Positions 38,815-42,934 of a stretch of 64,000 bases of DNA are shown in pieces. Numbering within the stretch: position 1 is the first letter of the stretch; each line of letters starts with the position of its first letter. The DNA comes from Gemmatimonadaceae bacterium (GTDB taxonomy: Bacteria > Gemmatimonadota > Gemmatimonadetes > Gemmatimonadales > Gemmatimonadaceae). The stretch is taken from the NCBI GenBank assembly GCA_036504815.1, contig DASXUN010000012.1:1-64000 (forward strand). Reading direction: 5' to 3'. A program made the position numbers and the translations under genes. Under the pieces are notes generated by a model. That model was not told the DNA's origin. It worked only from the letters and a program-made list of their open reading frames with translations, and searched no databases.

Positions 38815-39576
38815 ATGTCGCTCATAACGACACAAGCCATCGTCCTCCACGCCTTCGACTATCGCGAGACGTCGCGCATCGTGCGGCTGATCACGCGGGA
38901 GCTGGGGATCGTGTCGGCGATCGCGCGCGGGGCGCGGCGGCCGCGCAACAAGTACGGGGCGGCGCTCGATCTGTACGCCGGCGGGGAAGCGCAGCTGATG
39001 ACGACCATGGGGCGTGACCTCCACACGCTGACCGCCTTCGAGGCGACGCAGTCGCGCCCGCTGCTGGCCGCTTCGCTCGACCGTTTCGCCGCCGCCGCGG
39101 CCATCGCCGAGTTGCTGCTGCGATTTGCGCCCGAGCAGGAAGACCCGGGGCTGCTCGACGCGATGACCGACGCACTCGACGCGCTCGAGGCGGCACCCCC
39201 CGGCGGCGCGGCGCCGGTGGCGCTCGGCGGGGCCTGGAGCCTGGTGGCGGAGCTGGGCTTTGCGCCGTCGCTCGATGAATGTGTGTCGTGCCATGCGCCA
39301 ATCGATGCCGACGCGTCGGTGTCGTTCAATCACCGCGCGGGCGGCGCCGTCTGCGCCAACTGCACCCGGCACACGCCCGGGGCGCGCACGCTCCCGCCCG
39401 AGGCGCGCGCCGCCATTCGCTCGTGGCTGGGCCGCCTGCCGTCGCCGTCGCTCGACGAACCCAGCATTCGCGCCCATCAGCGCCTGCTGCGTGAGTTTCT
39501 CGAGGAGCATCTCACCGACGGCGGCCGTCCGCTGCGCGCGCTGCTCGCGTGGGAGCGTCACGAGGTGGACGCGTGA
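38815..39576 (+). CDS. recO: DNA repair protein RecO
   Basis: Recombination mediator that loads RecA with RecR. The N-terminal OB fold begins [20 protein letters not shown]. The zinc knuckles are CVSC near residue 158 and CANC near residue 180, followed by a helical C-terminus ([13 protein letters not shown]). Length of 253 aa fits. I use the ATG at 38815 since the upstream in-frame ATG at 38743 lies in a repeat. The stop overlaps the selB GTG by 4 bases. Confidence 0.93.
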
Positions 39577-41474
39577 TCCTCGGCACCGCGGGGCACATCG
39601 ACCACGGCAAGACGGCGCTCGTGCACGCCCTGACCGGCGTGGACACCGACCGTCTCCCCGAGGAGAAGCGCCGTGGCATCACCATCGACCTCGGCTTCGC
39701 GCCCCTCGAACTCGAGGGGGTCGGCACGATTGGCGTCGTCGACGTGCCGGGCCATGAGGCGTTCGTGCGCACGATGCTCGCCGGGGCCGCGGGCATCGAT
39801 CTCGCCCTGCTGGTCGTCGCGGCGGACGAGGGCGTCATGCCCCAGACGCGCGAACACCTCGCCATCCTCGGCGCGCTTGGCATTCGCGGAGGCGTGGTGG
39901 CGCTCACCAAGGCGGACCTCGTGGACGACGAAATGCGCGCACTCGCGGCGGACGACGTCACGGCCGCACTGCGGGGCTCGCCGCTCGAGGGCGCCGCGGT
40001 CATCACGGTTTCTGCGCGCACGGGCGAAGGACTCGACGCGCTGCGTCGTGCCCTGGTGCAGGCCGCGGCCGCGGTGCCGGCGCGCGACGCGGGCGACCTG
40101 TTCCGGATGCCGGTGGACCGCGCCTTCACGGTGAAGGGCACCGGCACCGTCGTCACCGGCACCGTCTGGAGCGGCCGCGTCGGGCGCGACGATGCGCTTC
40201 GCGCCTTTCCCGGTGGCGTCGCGCTGCGGGTGCGCGGCGTCGAGACGCACGGGCACGCGGTCGCGGCTGGCCAGGCGGGCCAGCGCGCGGCGCTCGCCCT
40301 CGCCGGCGCGGAGCGCGACGCGTTGGCCCGCGGTGGCGTACTGGTGGCTGCTGGCGACGCGTGGGTAGAACGCGATCGTCTCCGGGCGGACGTGGCGCTG
40401 TTCGACGACGCGGGAATTACGCTGACGGCGCGGACGCGCGTGCGCCTCCACCTGGGCACGACCGAAGTCGGCGCGCGGGTCGTGGCGCGTGGTGGCCCCG
40501 TGCAGCCGGGCGCGACGGTCGCCGTGCGCCTGGTGCTCGATCATCCGGTCGTGGCACGTGGCGGTGATCGATTCGTCCTGCGCGCCGCGTCGCCCGCGGC
40601 GACCATCGGTGGCGGGGTCATCACCGATCCGGCGCCGCCGTTCCGGCGAACGCCGCCCTTCGCCGGGGCGGGGGCCTCTCCCGCGCAGCGCTTGACGTGG
40701 ATGCTGGACGAAGAGCGTCACCGCGGAATCGCCGCCAACTCGCTCCCCTTGCGCCTCGGACTGACCCGGCAGGAAAGCGATCGCCTCGTGGCCAGCCTGG
40801 CGGGCGACCTGGTTCGCGTCGGCGATCGGATCACGCGGCGCGCGGTGCTCGACGGCGCGCAGGCTGCGTTGCTCGAAGCCATTGACGCCGCACACGCGGC
40901 GCGGCCCCTTGATCGCGGCGCGCCGCTGCAGTCGCTGCGCGCCAAGCTCGCACTCGGGCCCGAACTGTGCGACGAGGTGGTGCGCGCGGCCGTGCAGCAG
41001 GGGCTCGTCGTGATCACCGAGGGGCTTGTCGCACGGGCGGGATGGCAGCCCAGGCTGTCCGCGGCGGACCGCGCCGCCATCGATGCCATCGAACAGGTGC
41101 TGGCGGCGGCCGGCCGTGAGCCGCCGACGATCGACGAGATCGGCAGCAAGGTTGGCGCACGCGCTCCGGCGCTGCTGCGATTGCTCGAGCGCGAGGGGCG
41201 GGTGGTGGCGGTCGGGGAGCAGCGCTTCCTCAGCCCGGCCGCCTGGCGCGCCGCGTTGCGCGATCTTCGCCACGGTACCCGCGAGGCCCGCGTCTACTCG
41301 GCCGGTGAGATTCGGGAAATCTTCGGTATCAGCCGCAAGTACTCCATCCCGCTGATCGAAGGGTGCGATCGTCTCGGCATCAGCTCTCGGGTCGAGGATG
41401 GACGGCGGTTCCACTGGGACCACCTGAACCCAGCCGTTGCCTCGTTCCTTGACAGTGCCGAAAACGGCCCCTAG
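39573..41474 (+). CDS. selB: Selenocysteine-specific translation elongation factor
   Basis: Delivers Sec-tRNA to UGA codons bearing a SECIS. The GTPase domain starts at the N-terminus: [10 protein letters not shown] (G1), [13 protein letters not shown] (G3), TKAD (G4). Two beta-barrel domains follow, then about 250 residues of winged-helix repeats that bind the SECIS, ending in [20 protein letters not shown]. Length of 633 aa is that of SelB, longer than EF-Tu. No selA, selD, tRNA-Sec or obvious selenoprotein is in the window. Confidence 0.95.
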
Positions 41475-41481
41475 TTTGGCT

Positions 41482-41491
41482 ATTGGCCAAT
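41482..41491. promoter_or_regulatory. Palindrome ATTGGCCAAT upstream of the small secreted protein
   Basis: A perfect 10-bp palindrome lies 66 bases upstream of the ATG at 41558, in an A+T-rich leader that differs from the rest of the window. It could be an operator, but no promoter elements are clear enough to call. Confidence 0.35.
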
Positions 41492-41557
41492 CACATCCAC
41501 ACTCATTCCTAGAGGAGACACACCAACCGAACCTGCATTGTCAGAAAAGGAGTTACG

Positions 41558-41998
41558 ATGAGGTATCGTTGGGCAGCACTCCTAGCGGTGCTGACCCTCG
41601 CCCTCACGCCACAGCTTGGGACGGCTCAGACGGGATCGAGCCAGGCTAAGCGACCCGTAGTAACGCTGAAGCAGAACTACCCGAACCCGTTCAATCCGCA
41701 GACTTGGATTCCGTTCGAGATCGGCTGTGATGAGAATCCGAGTCATCAGTTCAAGGTGTCGGTCCGCGTCTACAACCTGCTCGCGCAGTTTGTCGCGGTG
41801 CCGGTGCTGCAGGGCGGAACGGGAAATGTGGCAGGGGGTCAACCGCTGGAGAACGTATTGCTGACGTGCGGCCAGTACACGGCGTACTGGAATGGCAACT
41901 ACCGCAATACGAGCAACGAAGTGGCCTCGGGCATCTACATGTATGTCATCGAGGTGGACGGTCAGCGAACCGTCAAGAAGATGTTGATTACCAAGTAG
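41558..41998 (+). CDS. Secreted stand-alone FlgD/T9SS-sorting-like domain protein
   Basis: The 146-aa product has a signal peptide (MRYRWAALLAVLTLALTP, cleavage after TAQ) and then a single beta-sandwich domain of the kind normally found at the C-terminus of large secreted proteins. The markers are NYPNPFNPQTWIPFEI, VRVYNLLAQFVAVPVL, YTAYWNGNYRNTSNEVASGI and a final KKMLITK. Two cysteines (near residues 66 and 108) could form a disulphide. It has its own strong Shine-Dalgarno AAAAGGAG (41545-41552, 5-base spacing) and its own terminator, so it is an independent, probably well-expressed gene. Function is unknown. Confidence 0.87.
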   Translation: MRYRWAALLAVLTLALTPQLGTAQTGSSQAKRPVVTLKQNYPNPFNPQTWIPFEIGCDENPSHQFKVSVRVYNLLAQFVAVPVLQGGTGNVAGGQPLENVLLTCGQYTAYWNGNYRNTSNEVASGIYMYVIEVDGQRTVKKMLITK

Positions 41999-42008
41999 CG
42001 AATACCGG

Positions 42009-42046
42009 CCGCGCTCGAGACCATCCACCTCGAGCGCGGTCTTTTT
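42009..42046 (+). terminator. Rho-independent terminator
   Basis: A perfect 11-bp stem (CCGCGCTCGAG at 42009-42019 with 42029-42039), a 9-base loop and a TCTTTTT tail at 42040-42046. It lies 11 bases after the stop of the small secreted protein. It is the most classical terminator in the window. Confidence 0.93.
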
Positions 42047-42115
42047 GCGCCCCTCCCACATTGCCGCGGCCCGGCGCGACCTGCACCTTCATCGCGACCT
42101 CTTCGCGCGGGGCTG

Positions 42116-42934
42116 ATGCTTACGGACAGGGTGGTCTTCATCACGGGGGTCGGCTCGGGCATCGGCCGCGCGCTGTCGCTGGGCGCCGCTGCGCGCCGTG
42201 CTCGCGTCTGGGTGACCGACATCGACGGCGCGGCGGCGGAGGTTGTGGCAGAGGCGTGCCGCGCGGCGGGTGGACGCGCCCAGGCACGCACGCTGGATGT
42301 CACCGATGCGTCGGCGGTGGAGCGCGCGATCGCCGAGATGGTTGCCGCCGAGGGTCGCCTCGACGTCTGCTTCAACAACGCAGGCATCGGCTTCGCCGGC
42401 GAGTTTCGCGACTCCACCATCGAGCACTGGCACCGGGTGCTGGACGTGAATCTCTTTGGTGTCATCAACGTGGCGCACGCGGCCTACCGCCAGATGGTCG
42501 CGCAGCGCAGCGGTCACCTCGTCAACACGGCCTCGCTCGCTGGACTCATTCCGACGCCCGGATTGAGCGCCTACGGGGCGGGGAAGTGGGCCGTGGTCAG
42601 TCTCACGCACGCGCTGCGGCTCGAGGGGCGCGGGCTCGGCGTGAGGGTGAGCGCCATCTGTCCCGGATTCATCGAGAGCAACATCTACAGCCGCACACTG
42701 GTTGCCGGCCTGAAGGCCGATGCGATGCGCACGATGGCGCCGTTCCCCATCGTGCCGGTGGAGGGGCTCGTCGAGCGCGTCTTCGCCGGACTCGCGCGCA
42801 ACGAGGCGCTGATCGTCTATCCGGGGTATGCCCGTCTGCTGTGGTGGCTCTGGCGCCTCGTGCCGTGGGCCACGACCTGGAAGGGCCTGGCCCAGGTGGA
42901 GAAAATTCGCGCCGAATTCCGTATTGTGAGGTAG
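42116..42934 (+). CDS. Short-chain dehydrogenase/reductase
   Basis: Classical SDR of 272 aa. The NAD(P)-binding motif is TGVGSGIGR (residues 10-18), with NNAGIGF near residue 86. The catalytic Ser lies in VNTASLAGL and the YxxxK is SAYGAGK near residue 155. Asp in VTDIDGAA at the end of strand 2 suggests NAD preference. The C-terminus is hydrophobic (LLWWLWRLVPWA) and may associate with membrane. Substrate is unknown. It is a single gene between a terminator and a family E repeat. Confidence 0.9.
   Translation: MLTDRVVFITGVGSGIGRALSLGAAARRARVWVTDIDGAAAEVVAEACRAAGGRAQARTLDVTDASAVERAIAEMVAAEGRLDVCFNNAGIGFAGEFRDSTIEHWHRVLDVNLFGVINVAHAAYRQMVAQRSGHLVNTASLAGLIPTPGLSAYGAGKWAVVSLTHALRLEGRGLGVRVSAICPGFIESNIYSRTLVAGLKADAMRTMAPFPIVPVEGLVERVFAGLARNEALIVYPGYARLLWWLWRLVPWATTWKGLAQVEKIRAEFRIVR

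Follow-up and report, generated by a model that had tools for sequence, protein, structure and literature searches.

Gene layout and expression signals

The window, as we call the whole analysed stretch of 64,000 nucleotides, carries a short gene on its forward strand at 41558 to 41998. The gene and the features read around it are:

41449 to 41477, forward strand: predicted sigma-70-type promoter, with TTGACA (41449-41454), a 17-nt spacer and TAGTTT (41472-41477), by direct reading
41485 to 41498, forward strand: genus-conserved leader element GGCCAATCACATCC, with its core in 10/10 same-genus loci
41511 to 41517, forward strand: upstream Shine-Dalgarno-like element AGAGGAG (in the family often CAGGAG), from the leader alignment
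41538 to 41544, forward strand: leader motif T(C/T)GT(C/T)AG just before the Shine-Dalgarno sequence, found in 24/47 family f1 loci
41545 to 41552, forward strand: Shine-Dalgarno sequence AAAAGGAG, duplex energy -9.1 kcal/mol
41558 to 41998, forward strand: coding sequence of a stand-alone T9SS type-A CTD protein of 146 aa, from the ORF reading and orthologues
41558 to 41626, forward strand: putative signal peptide, residues 1-23, read by eye with cleavage assumed between A and Q
41627 to 41665, forward strand: variable linker, residues 24-36, from alignment A1
41666 to 41995, forward strand: T9SS type-A CTD, residues 37-146, an Ig-like beta-sandwich with the terminal motif KKMLITK, from alignment, model, profile and structure matches
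42007 to 42046, forward strand: predicted intrinsic terminator, a 13-bp hairpin (42007-42041) followed by TTTTT, -25.4 kcal/mol

The predicted promoter runs over the last bases of selB, stop codon included. We examined the same region in 73 loci, chosen among those with listed coordinates. TTGAC occurs within 160 nt upstream of the gene in 67 of them, against about 8.5 expected from mononucleotide shuffles, and in 64 it is followed 15-20 nt later by TA. The predicted -10 element, TAGTTT, agrees with the consensus at three of six bases, and a simple promoter scanner listed no promoter at the lone gene. On the 3′ side, a hairpin with a T-rich tail is found in 50 of the 73 loci; the simple terminator scanner listed none at the gene described here, probably because its loop has 9 nt and the scanner's limit is 8. 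The preliminary description of this DNA, made from the sequence, had proposed a textbook terminator and separately controlled expression, and both proposals are supported by the recurring promoter-like motif and hairpin.

The leader is richer in A+T than the window, as had also been described, with a GC fraction of 0.47 versus 0.70, which places it at the 0.3rd percentile of 83-nt windows. The element GGCCAATCACATCC lies just after the predicted -10 element, and the transcript therefore probably starts close by. Positions 41482-41484 and GGCCAATCACATCC together form the palindrome ATTGGCCAAT, which occurs once in the window. This palindrome, pointed out earlier, is indeed present, but its symmetry is kept in only 4 of 10 same-genus loci, whereas the asymmetric GGCCAATCACATCC is kept in all 10, and we therefore rejected the palindrome as an operator. 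Further along the leader, AGGAG lies 25-65 nt before the start codon in 34 of the 47 loci of the family f1 leader alignment; no conserved short upstream ORF after this first AGGAG was seen by eye in the 47 leaders, and no Rfam element was found in 41250-42150 up to E of 1. The Shine-Dalgarno sequence AAAAGGAG is strong, but the claim that no other in the window is stronger was not borne out; it ranks eighth (tied) of 51 window ORFs in a rough anti-Shine-Dalgarno ranking that allows alternative starts and uses duplex energies computed with an assumed 16S tail. Promoter, Shine-Dalgarno sequence and leader, as read from the DNA, suggest high expression.

The encoded protein and the T9SS of its host

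The protein begins with a putative Sec-type signal peptide (MRYRW...GTA/Q, the slash marking the assumed cleavage site) and has, by eye, no lipobox cysteine. Q24 is invariant across 24 aligned orthologues (alignment A1, comprising 24 of 30 extracted orthologue loci). About 13 residues separate the signal peptide from the domain YPNPFNP...YWNG...SGIYMY...VKKMLITK, which resembles T9SS type-A CTDs in its YPNPFNP, VYNxLxQ, WxG, SGxYxY and KKMxxxK motifs, in its Ig-like sandwich, in its C-terminal position and in its occurrence in a host with SprA and PorV-family barrels (see below). Both models of T9SS tails score the protein just below their curated cut-offs (PF18962, 24.1 versus 27 bits; TIGR04183, 20.8 versus 23 bits), so the CTD label rests on fold and motifs and not on these models.

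Alignment A2 sets the window protein beside 36 tails from named genomes (36 of 80 loci, themselves the best of 537 confirmed stretches in the named-genome scan); it spans the whole CTD with the full motif set and has nine invariant columns. The A2 profile matched, in the PDB, the CTD region of PorU (6za2, E 3.4e-5) and the short CTD chains 8glj_D (E 0.0046) and 8glk_D (E 0.029), which we take to be from translocon structures. A predicted model of the lone CTD protein, built from the A2 alignment, has a pLDDT of 84.3 and a pTM of 0.71. With this model, VIA-align ranked the PorU CTD (6za2) first, with Z 10.3 and 2.3 Å over 95 residues, and also gave the PorZ CTD (5m11, Z 8.6). The sandwich match taken alone is weak, because Z values of 8-10, close to that of PorU, are also reached by many unrelated Ig-like domains. 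The CTDs of RgpB and HBP35 were absent among the 50 VIA-align matches listed; a PDB search with the single lone-protein sequence gave no match up to E of 1, and Foldseek with the model gave none at E≤0.001, its top matches being generic Ig-like folds only.

The 146-aa protein has the fold and motifs of a T9SS type-A CTD and no passenger, the ORF being 146 aa long and its orthologues likewise short. ORF, motifs, alignment and fold thus agree with the earlier suggestion of a lone, exported-type T9SS-tail domain close behind a signal peptide. Apart from the missing passenger and the scores below cut-off, the protein differs from T9SS type-A CTDs in usually occurring once per genome, in carrying extra residues inserted ahead of the WNG strand and, in the lone proteins of family f1, in having at least two cysteines.

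The same suggestion had also given the domain a FlgD identity, which does not hold. The FlgD_ig model matches three other places in the genome and skips the lone ORF, and hmmscan of the protein gives no FlgD family; an assignment to FlgD Ig-like (PF13860) was therefore rejected. The middle strands are partly similar (3osv, E 2.7e-6 with the A2 profile), but this match is without the YPNPFNP and KKM ends.

The host genome encodes a SprA of 2092 aa (TIGR04189, 799.7 bits versus a cut-off of 200). The PorV/PorQ family is matched at three places, two of them above cut-off; a barrel of this family scores 126.5 bits with NF033709 (cut-off 90), and the specific PorV model NF033710 gives 41 bits, far below its cut-off of 250. 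The PorU model NF033707 had no match in the genome, in a search where no control genome scored above the cut-off. Of the T9SS genes by which the preliminary description had proposed to check its reading, SprA and PorV-family barrels are thus present, but the PorU model finds nothing.

A generic tail model run in six frames over the genome gave six places at E≤1 including the lone gene, one of them at the cut-off; the lone gene was third with 16.4 bits, below 23.0 and 18.3. The tail of a zinc carboxypeptidase (M14) is around the cut-off, with 23.0 bits in the six-frame scan and 18.1 by hmmscan, and in the whole-protein scan the lone gene, with 20.8 bits, exceeds this carboxypeptidase. The ends of three other C-terminal candidates (at loci L132, L135 and L136) were read, and none has the terminal lysine. 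Judged by its motifs, the lone protein is the most canonical CTD seen in the genome.

A genome that has SprA yet few canonical tails, with other candidates that lack the terminal lysine, would fit a CTD-only protein that acts in trans, binding CTD-less partners and piloting them through SprA. No partner was found, however, the conserved neighbours seen are housekeeping genes, and the gene persists without SprA (see below), and we consider such trans sorting improbable. The shortage of competing canonical tails speaks against the decoy sorting signal put forward in the preliminary description, a titrating signal that would limit the export of other CTD proteins. A cargo-less CTD could compete for PorV, and its promoter and Shine-Dalgarno sequence are strong, but there is little in the genome for it to compete with, and lineages without SprA keep the gene. 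The results lend a decoy no support, and we regard it as very improbable.

Conservation and the tie to SprA

Orthologues of the lone gene were matched in 78 of 99 relatives (own genome counted), one in each, and a profile search matched 229 of 298 genomes of the phylum. Outside family f11, exactly one match was found in 197 of the 223 matching genomes. In the 73-locus set, in which six neighbour genes were sought, the nearest of these upstream is selB or recO in 72 loci; the sole exception is cut by a contig end. On the other side, 58 of the 73 loci have clpB on the same strand, either immediately after the gene or with one gene between; none of the nine family f5 loci has it there. Across 18 orthologue pairs dN/dS was 0.08-0.42, indicating purifying selection. 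The lone CTD gene is therefore real, conserved, usually single-copy and syntenic, which answers the search for stand-alone ORFs in relatives that the preliminary description had proposed, and its retention as a stand-alone gene at the same chromosomal spot suggests that the tag has a job of its own.

In named genomes the domain otherwise ends a larger protein, as it would if the gene were a pseudogene or a frameshift-split fragment. Among the frames read for 45 of the best 80 named-genome loci, 43 of the 45 domains end a frame that is at least 300 aa or cut by a contig end, the two exceptions being a frame of 106 aa (L062) and, in a Gemmatimonadales genome, another short stand-alone gene, preceded by recO and selB (L046). 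In two loci labelled Gemmatimonadetes/Gemmatimonadota (L082 and L122), the domain is the tail of frames of 542 and 995 aa. The short ORF, however, has its own start in all 73 loci, with the promoter-like motif and the hairpin at the frequencies given above, evolves under purifying selection, and has selB or recO, not a passenger, upstream. Orthologues in the 78 relatives, together with synteny, rule out a split gene; we give a fragment or pseudogene a negligible probability, and the earlier claim of a gene in its own right survives.

Both flanks of the gene in the window show local arrangements. On the upstream side selB (39549-41474) adjoins it, and selB was not found at that place in several relatives, for example at L150, L153 and L154. 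Downstream, a short-chain dehydrogenase gene (42116-42934) lies between the lone gene and clpB, as it does at L186, the sole other same-genus locus of the 73-locus set; at the other 71 loci it was not found there.

The six genomes of f11, from another class (G099, G100, G101, G103, G104 and G105), have 14-23 CTD matches each and weaker SprA matches to the local profile. This looks like a seemingly ordinary multi-cargo state of T9SS, with the CTD as a common cargo tail.

SprA was found in 71 of the 99 relatives; a profile of eight SprA proteins from the phylum detected none in the other 28, in a search that had no positive control. Phylum-wide, the same profile matched 215 of 298 genomes. In 292 of these genomes (the 298 minus the six of f11), 189 have both the lone gene and SprA, 34 the lone gene only, 20 SprA only and 49 neither, giving an odds ratio of 13.6 and a Fisher p of 8e-18 in a test that ignores genome relatedness. 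The 99 relatives show the same tie, with both in 63, the lone gene only in 15, SprA only in 8 and neither in 13 (p = 2.8e-4). In genus g23, 12 genomes are without the lone gene (for example G032, G057 and G132) and none of them is SprA-positive, an apparent loss of both.

The end of the protein tracks SprA presence as well. The comparison covered 147 loci and took in 16 of the 37 genomes that carry the gene without a SprA match. Of 131 genomes with SprA, 118 retain the terminal lysine, versus 3 of 16 without; SGxY is kept in 116 of 131 versus 5 of 16, and YPNPFNP in 101 of 131 versus 4 of 16. The 13 SprA-positive exceptions to the terminal lysine end in R or N or have a C-terminal extension. 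In most SprA-negative rows an arginine replaces the terminal lysine, with the KKM residues largely retained. To contrast SprA-negative lineages with their nearest SprA-positive relatives we used a clpB+recO tree with 54 genomes (54 of the 64 non-f5 loci, those with both clpB and recO); the lysine is rarer without SprA in seven of nine contrasts and in none is the direction reversed, with two ties (sign test, p = 0.016, with the G026 contrast set against a broad 29-genome group overlapping other contrasts). According to the relevant section of a review, the last 13 residues of type-A CTDs and the lysines of motif E are required for efficient secretion (PMC10202324). Part of a translocon structure paper likewise describes a near-C-terminal lysine as almost invariant and functionally important (PMC10994853), although this residue may differ from the terminal lysine of the lone protein.

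Persistence without SprA

The lone gene is nevertheless present without a SprA match in 34 of the 292 genomes, from 20 genera. The 99 relatives include 15 such genomes, of which 10 lack a PorV-family match as well. In four SprA-negative pairs dN/dS was 0.12-0.27, inside the range of 12 SprA-positive pairs (0.08-0.38), and two mixed pairs gave 0.10 and 0.42. Faster evolution after SprA loss was not found, the rate relative to clpB+recO having a median of 1.55 (n = 10) versus 1.43 (n = 30; p = 0.44). Given purifying selection and an unchanged rate, the gene seems to be functional without SprA; either it has a second function, or SprA was missed in those genomes.

Such persistence would be accounted for if the CTD had been exapted for work outside T9SS, as an Ig-like protein of the periplasm or outer surface; its association with SprA would then be a by-product of shared ancestry or genome content. 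Under this reading the gene would stay at the same place, under purifying selection and at the same rate, in genomes without SprA, as observed, and the cysteines behave in the same manner: at least two are found in the mature part at all 47 family f1 loci whatever their SprA status (family f5 has none at 9 of 9 loci). Exaptation fits less well, however, with the co-occurrence of gene and SprA, and with changes at the terminal lysine, SGxY and YPNPFNP that are concentrated in genomes without SprA. We therefore treat it as a serious alternative that is on balance doubtful.

Possible roles of a cargo-less CTD

We tentatively favour, while stopping a little short of calling it probable, a reading of the lone gene as a dedicated, uncleaved, CTD-only client of T9SS that docks like the CTDs of PorU and PorZ. 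Sec would export the protein, leaving a cargo-free mature part made of the short linker and one type-A CTD, which SprA and a PorV-family barrel would then recognise. Once folded, it would stay docked and uncleaved on the PorV-family barrel or the cell surface, since the genome gave no match to PorU, the cleaving sortase, and the CTD has no passenger to set free. The protein would thus partner the translocon or an attachment complex, as a structural or anchoring element, and would not be an address label for cargo; we infer its export, docking and lack of cleavage from these combined analyses.

The nearest known parallel is the attachment complex of Porphyromonas (P. gingivalis). PorU is the best structural match of the lone protein and PorZ is among the matches listed, and, in the passages of the review that concern them, both retain their CTDs, uncleaved, as docking parts bound to PorV and PorQ (PMC10202324). 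The CTDs of PorU and PorZ, however, belong to large proteins whereas the lone protein carries nothing else, and its genome gave no PorU match. The Plug protein of the F. johnsoniae T9SS, as outlined in the same part of that review (PMC10202324), is a SprA-closing partner and exemplifies the kind of role imagined here; the likeness drawn is one of role.

A bolder version would make the T9SS signal a separate, conserved machine part in Gemmatimonadota. The protein might belong permanently to the SprA/PorV translocon, as a subunit that always fills the CTD pocket, or it might supply the export signal in trans for CTD-less proteins; where SprA was lost, it would have persisted with an altered C-terminus and a second role. 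We think this rather unlikely.

Descriptions of T9SS treat CTDs mainly as address labels that are removed. A conserved, cargo-less CTD whose end tracks the translocon would mean that the signal itself can be a working part. At about 120 residues, the protein offers a natural minimal substrate for structural work on SprA, and the SprA losses form a natural series for reading which signal residues the machine needs.

The lone gene also points to T9SS-like machinery across the phylum. Sections of a 2016 survey place T9SS in Bacteroidetes only (PMC4793230), and T9SS may be present in the phylum according to a passage in another paper (PMC11285876). A description of a lone CTD gene was not found in the open-access literature searched on Gemmatimonadota T9SS and small CTD proteins.

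The host genome also contains a four-gene run (G000:C12 419920-428793; L132:3921-12794) that encodes a 1904-aa protein, a PorV/PorQ-family barrel, an OMP_b-brl protein and a 435-aa protein. The 1904-aa protein matches no Pfam or NCBIfam family and has a CTD-like end by eye, with a weak match of 12.2 bits; the barrel gene lies directly 3′ of its gene. The 1904-aa protein may be a T9SS substrate served by a shuttle of its own.
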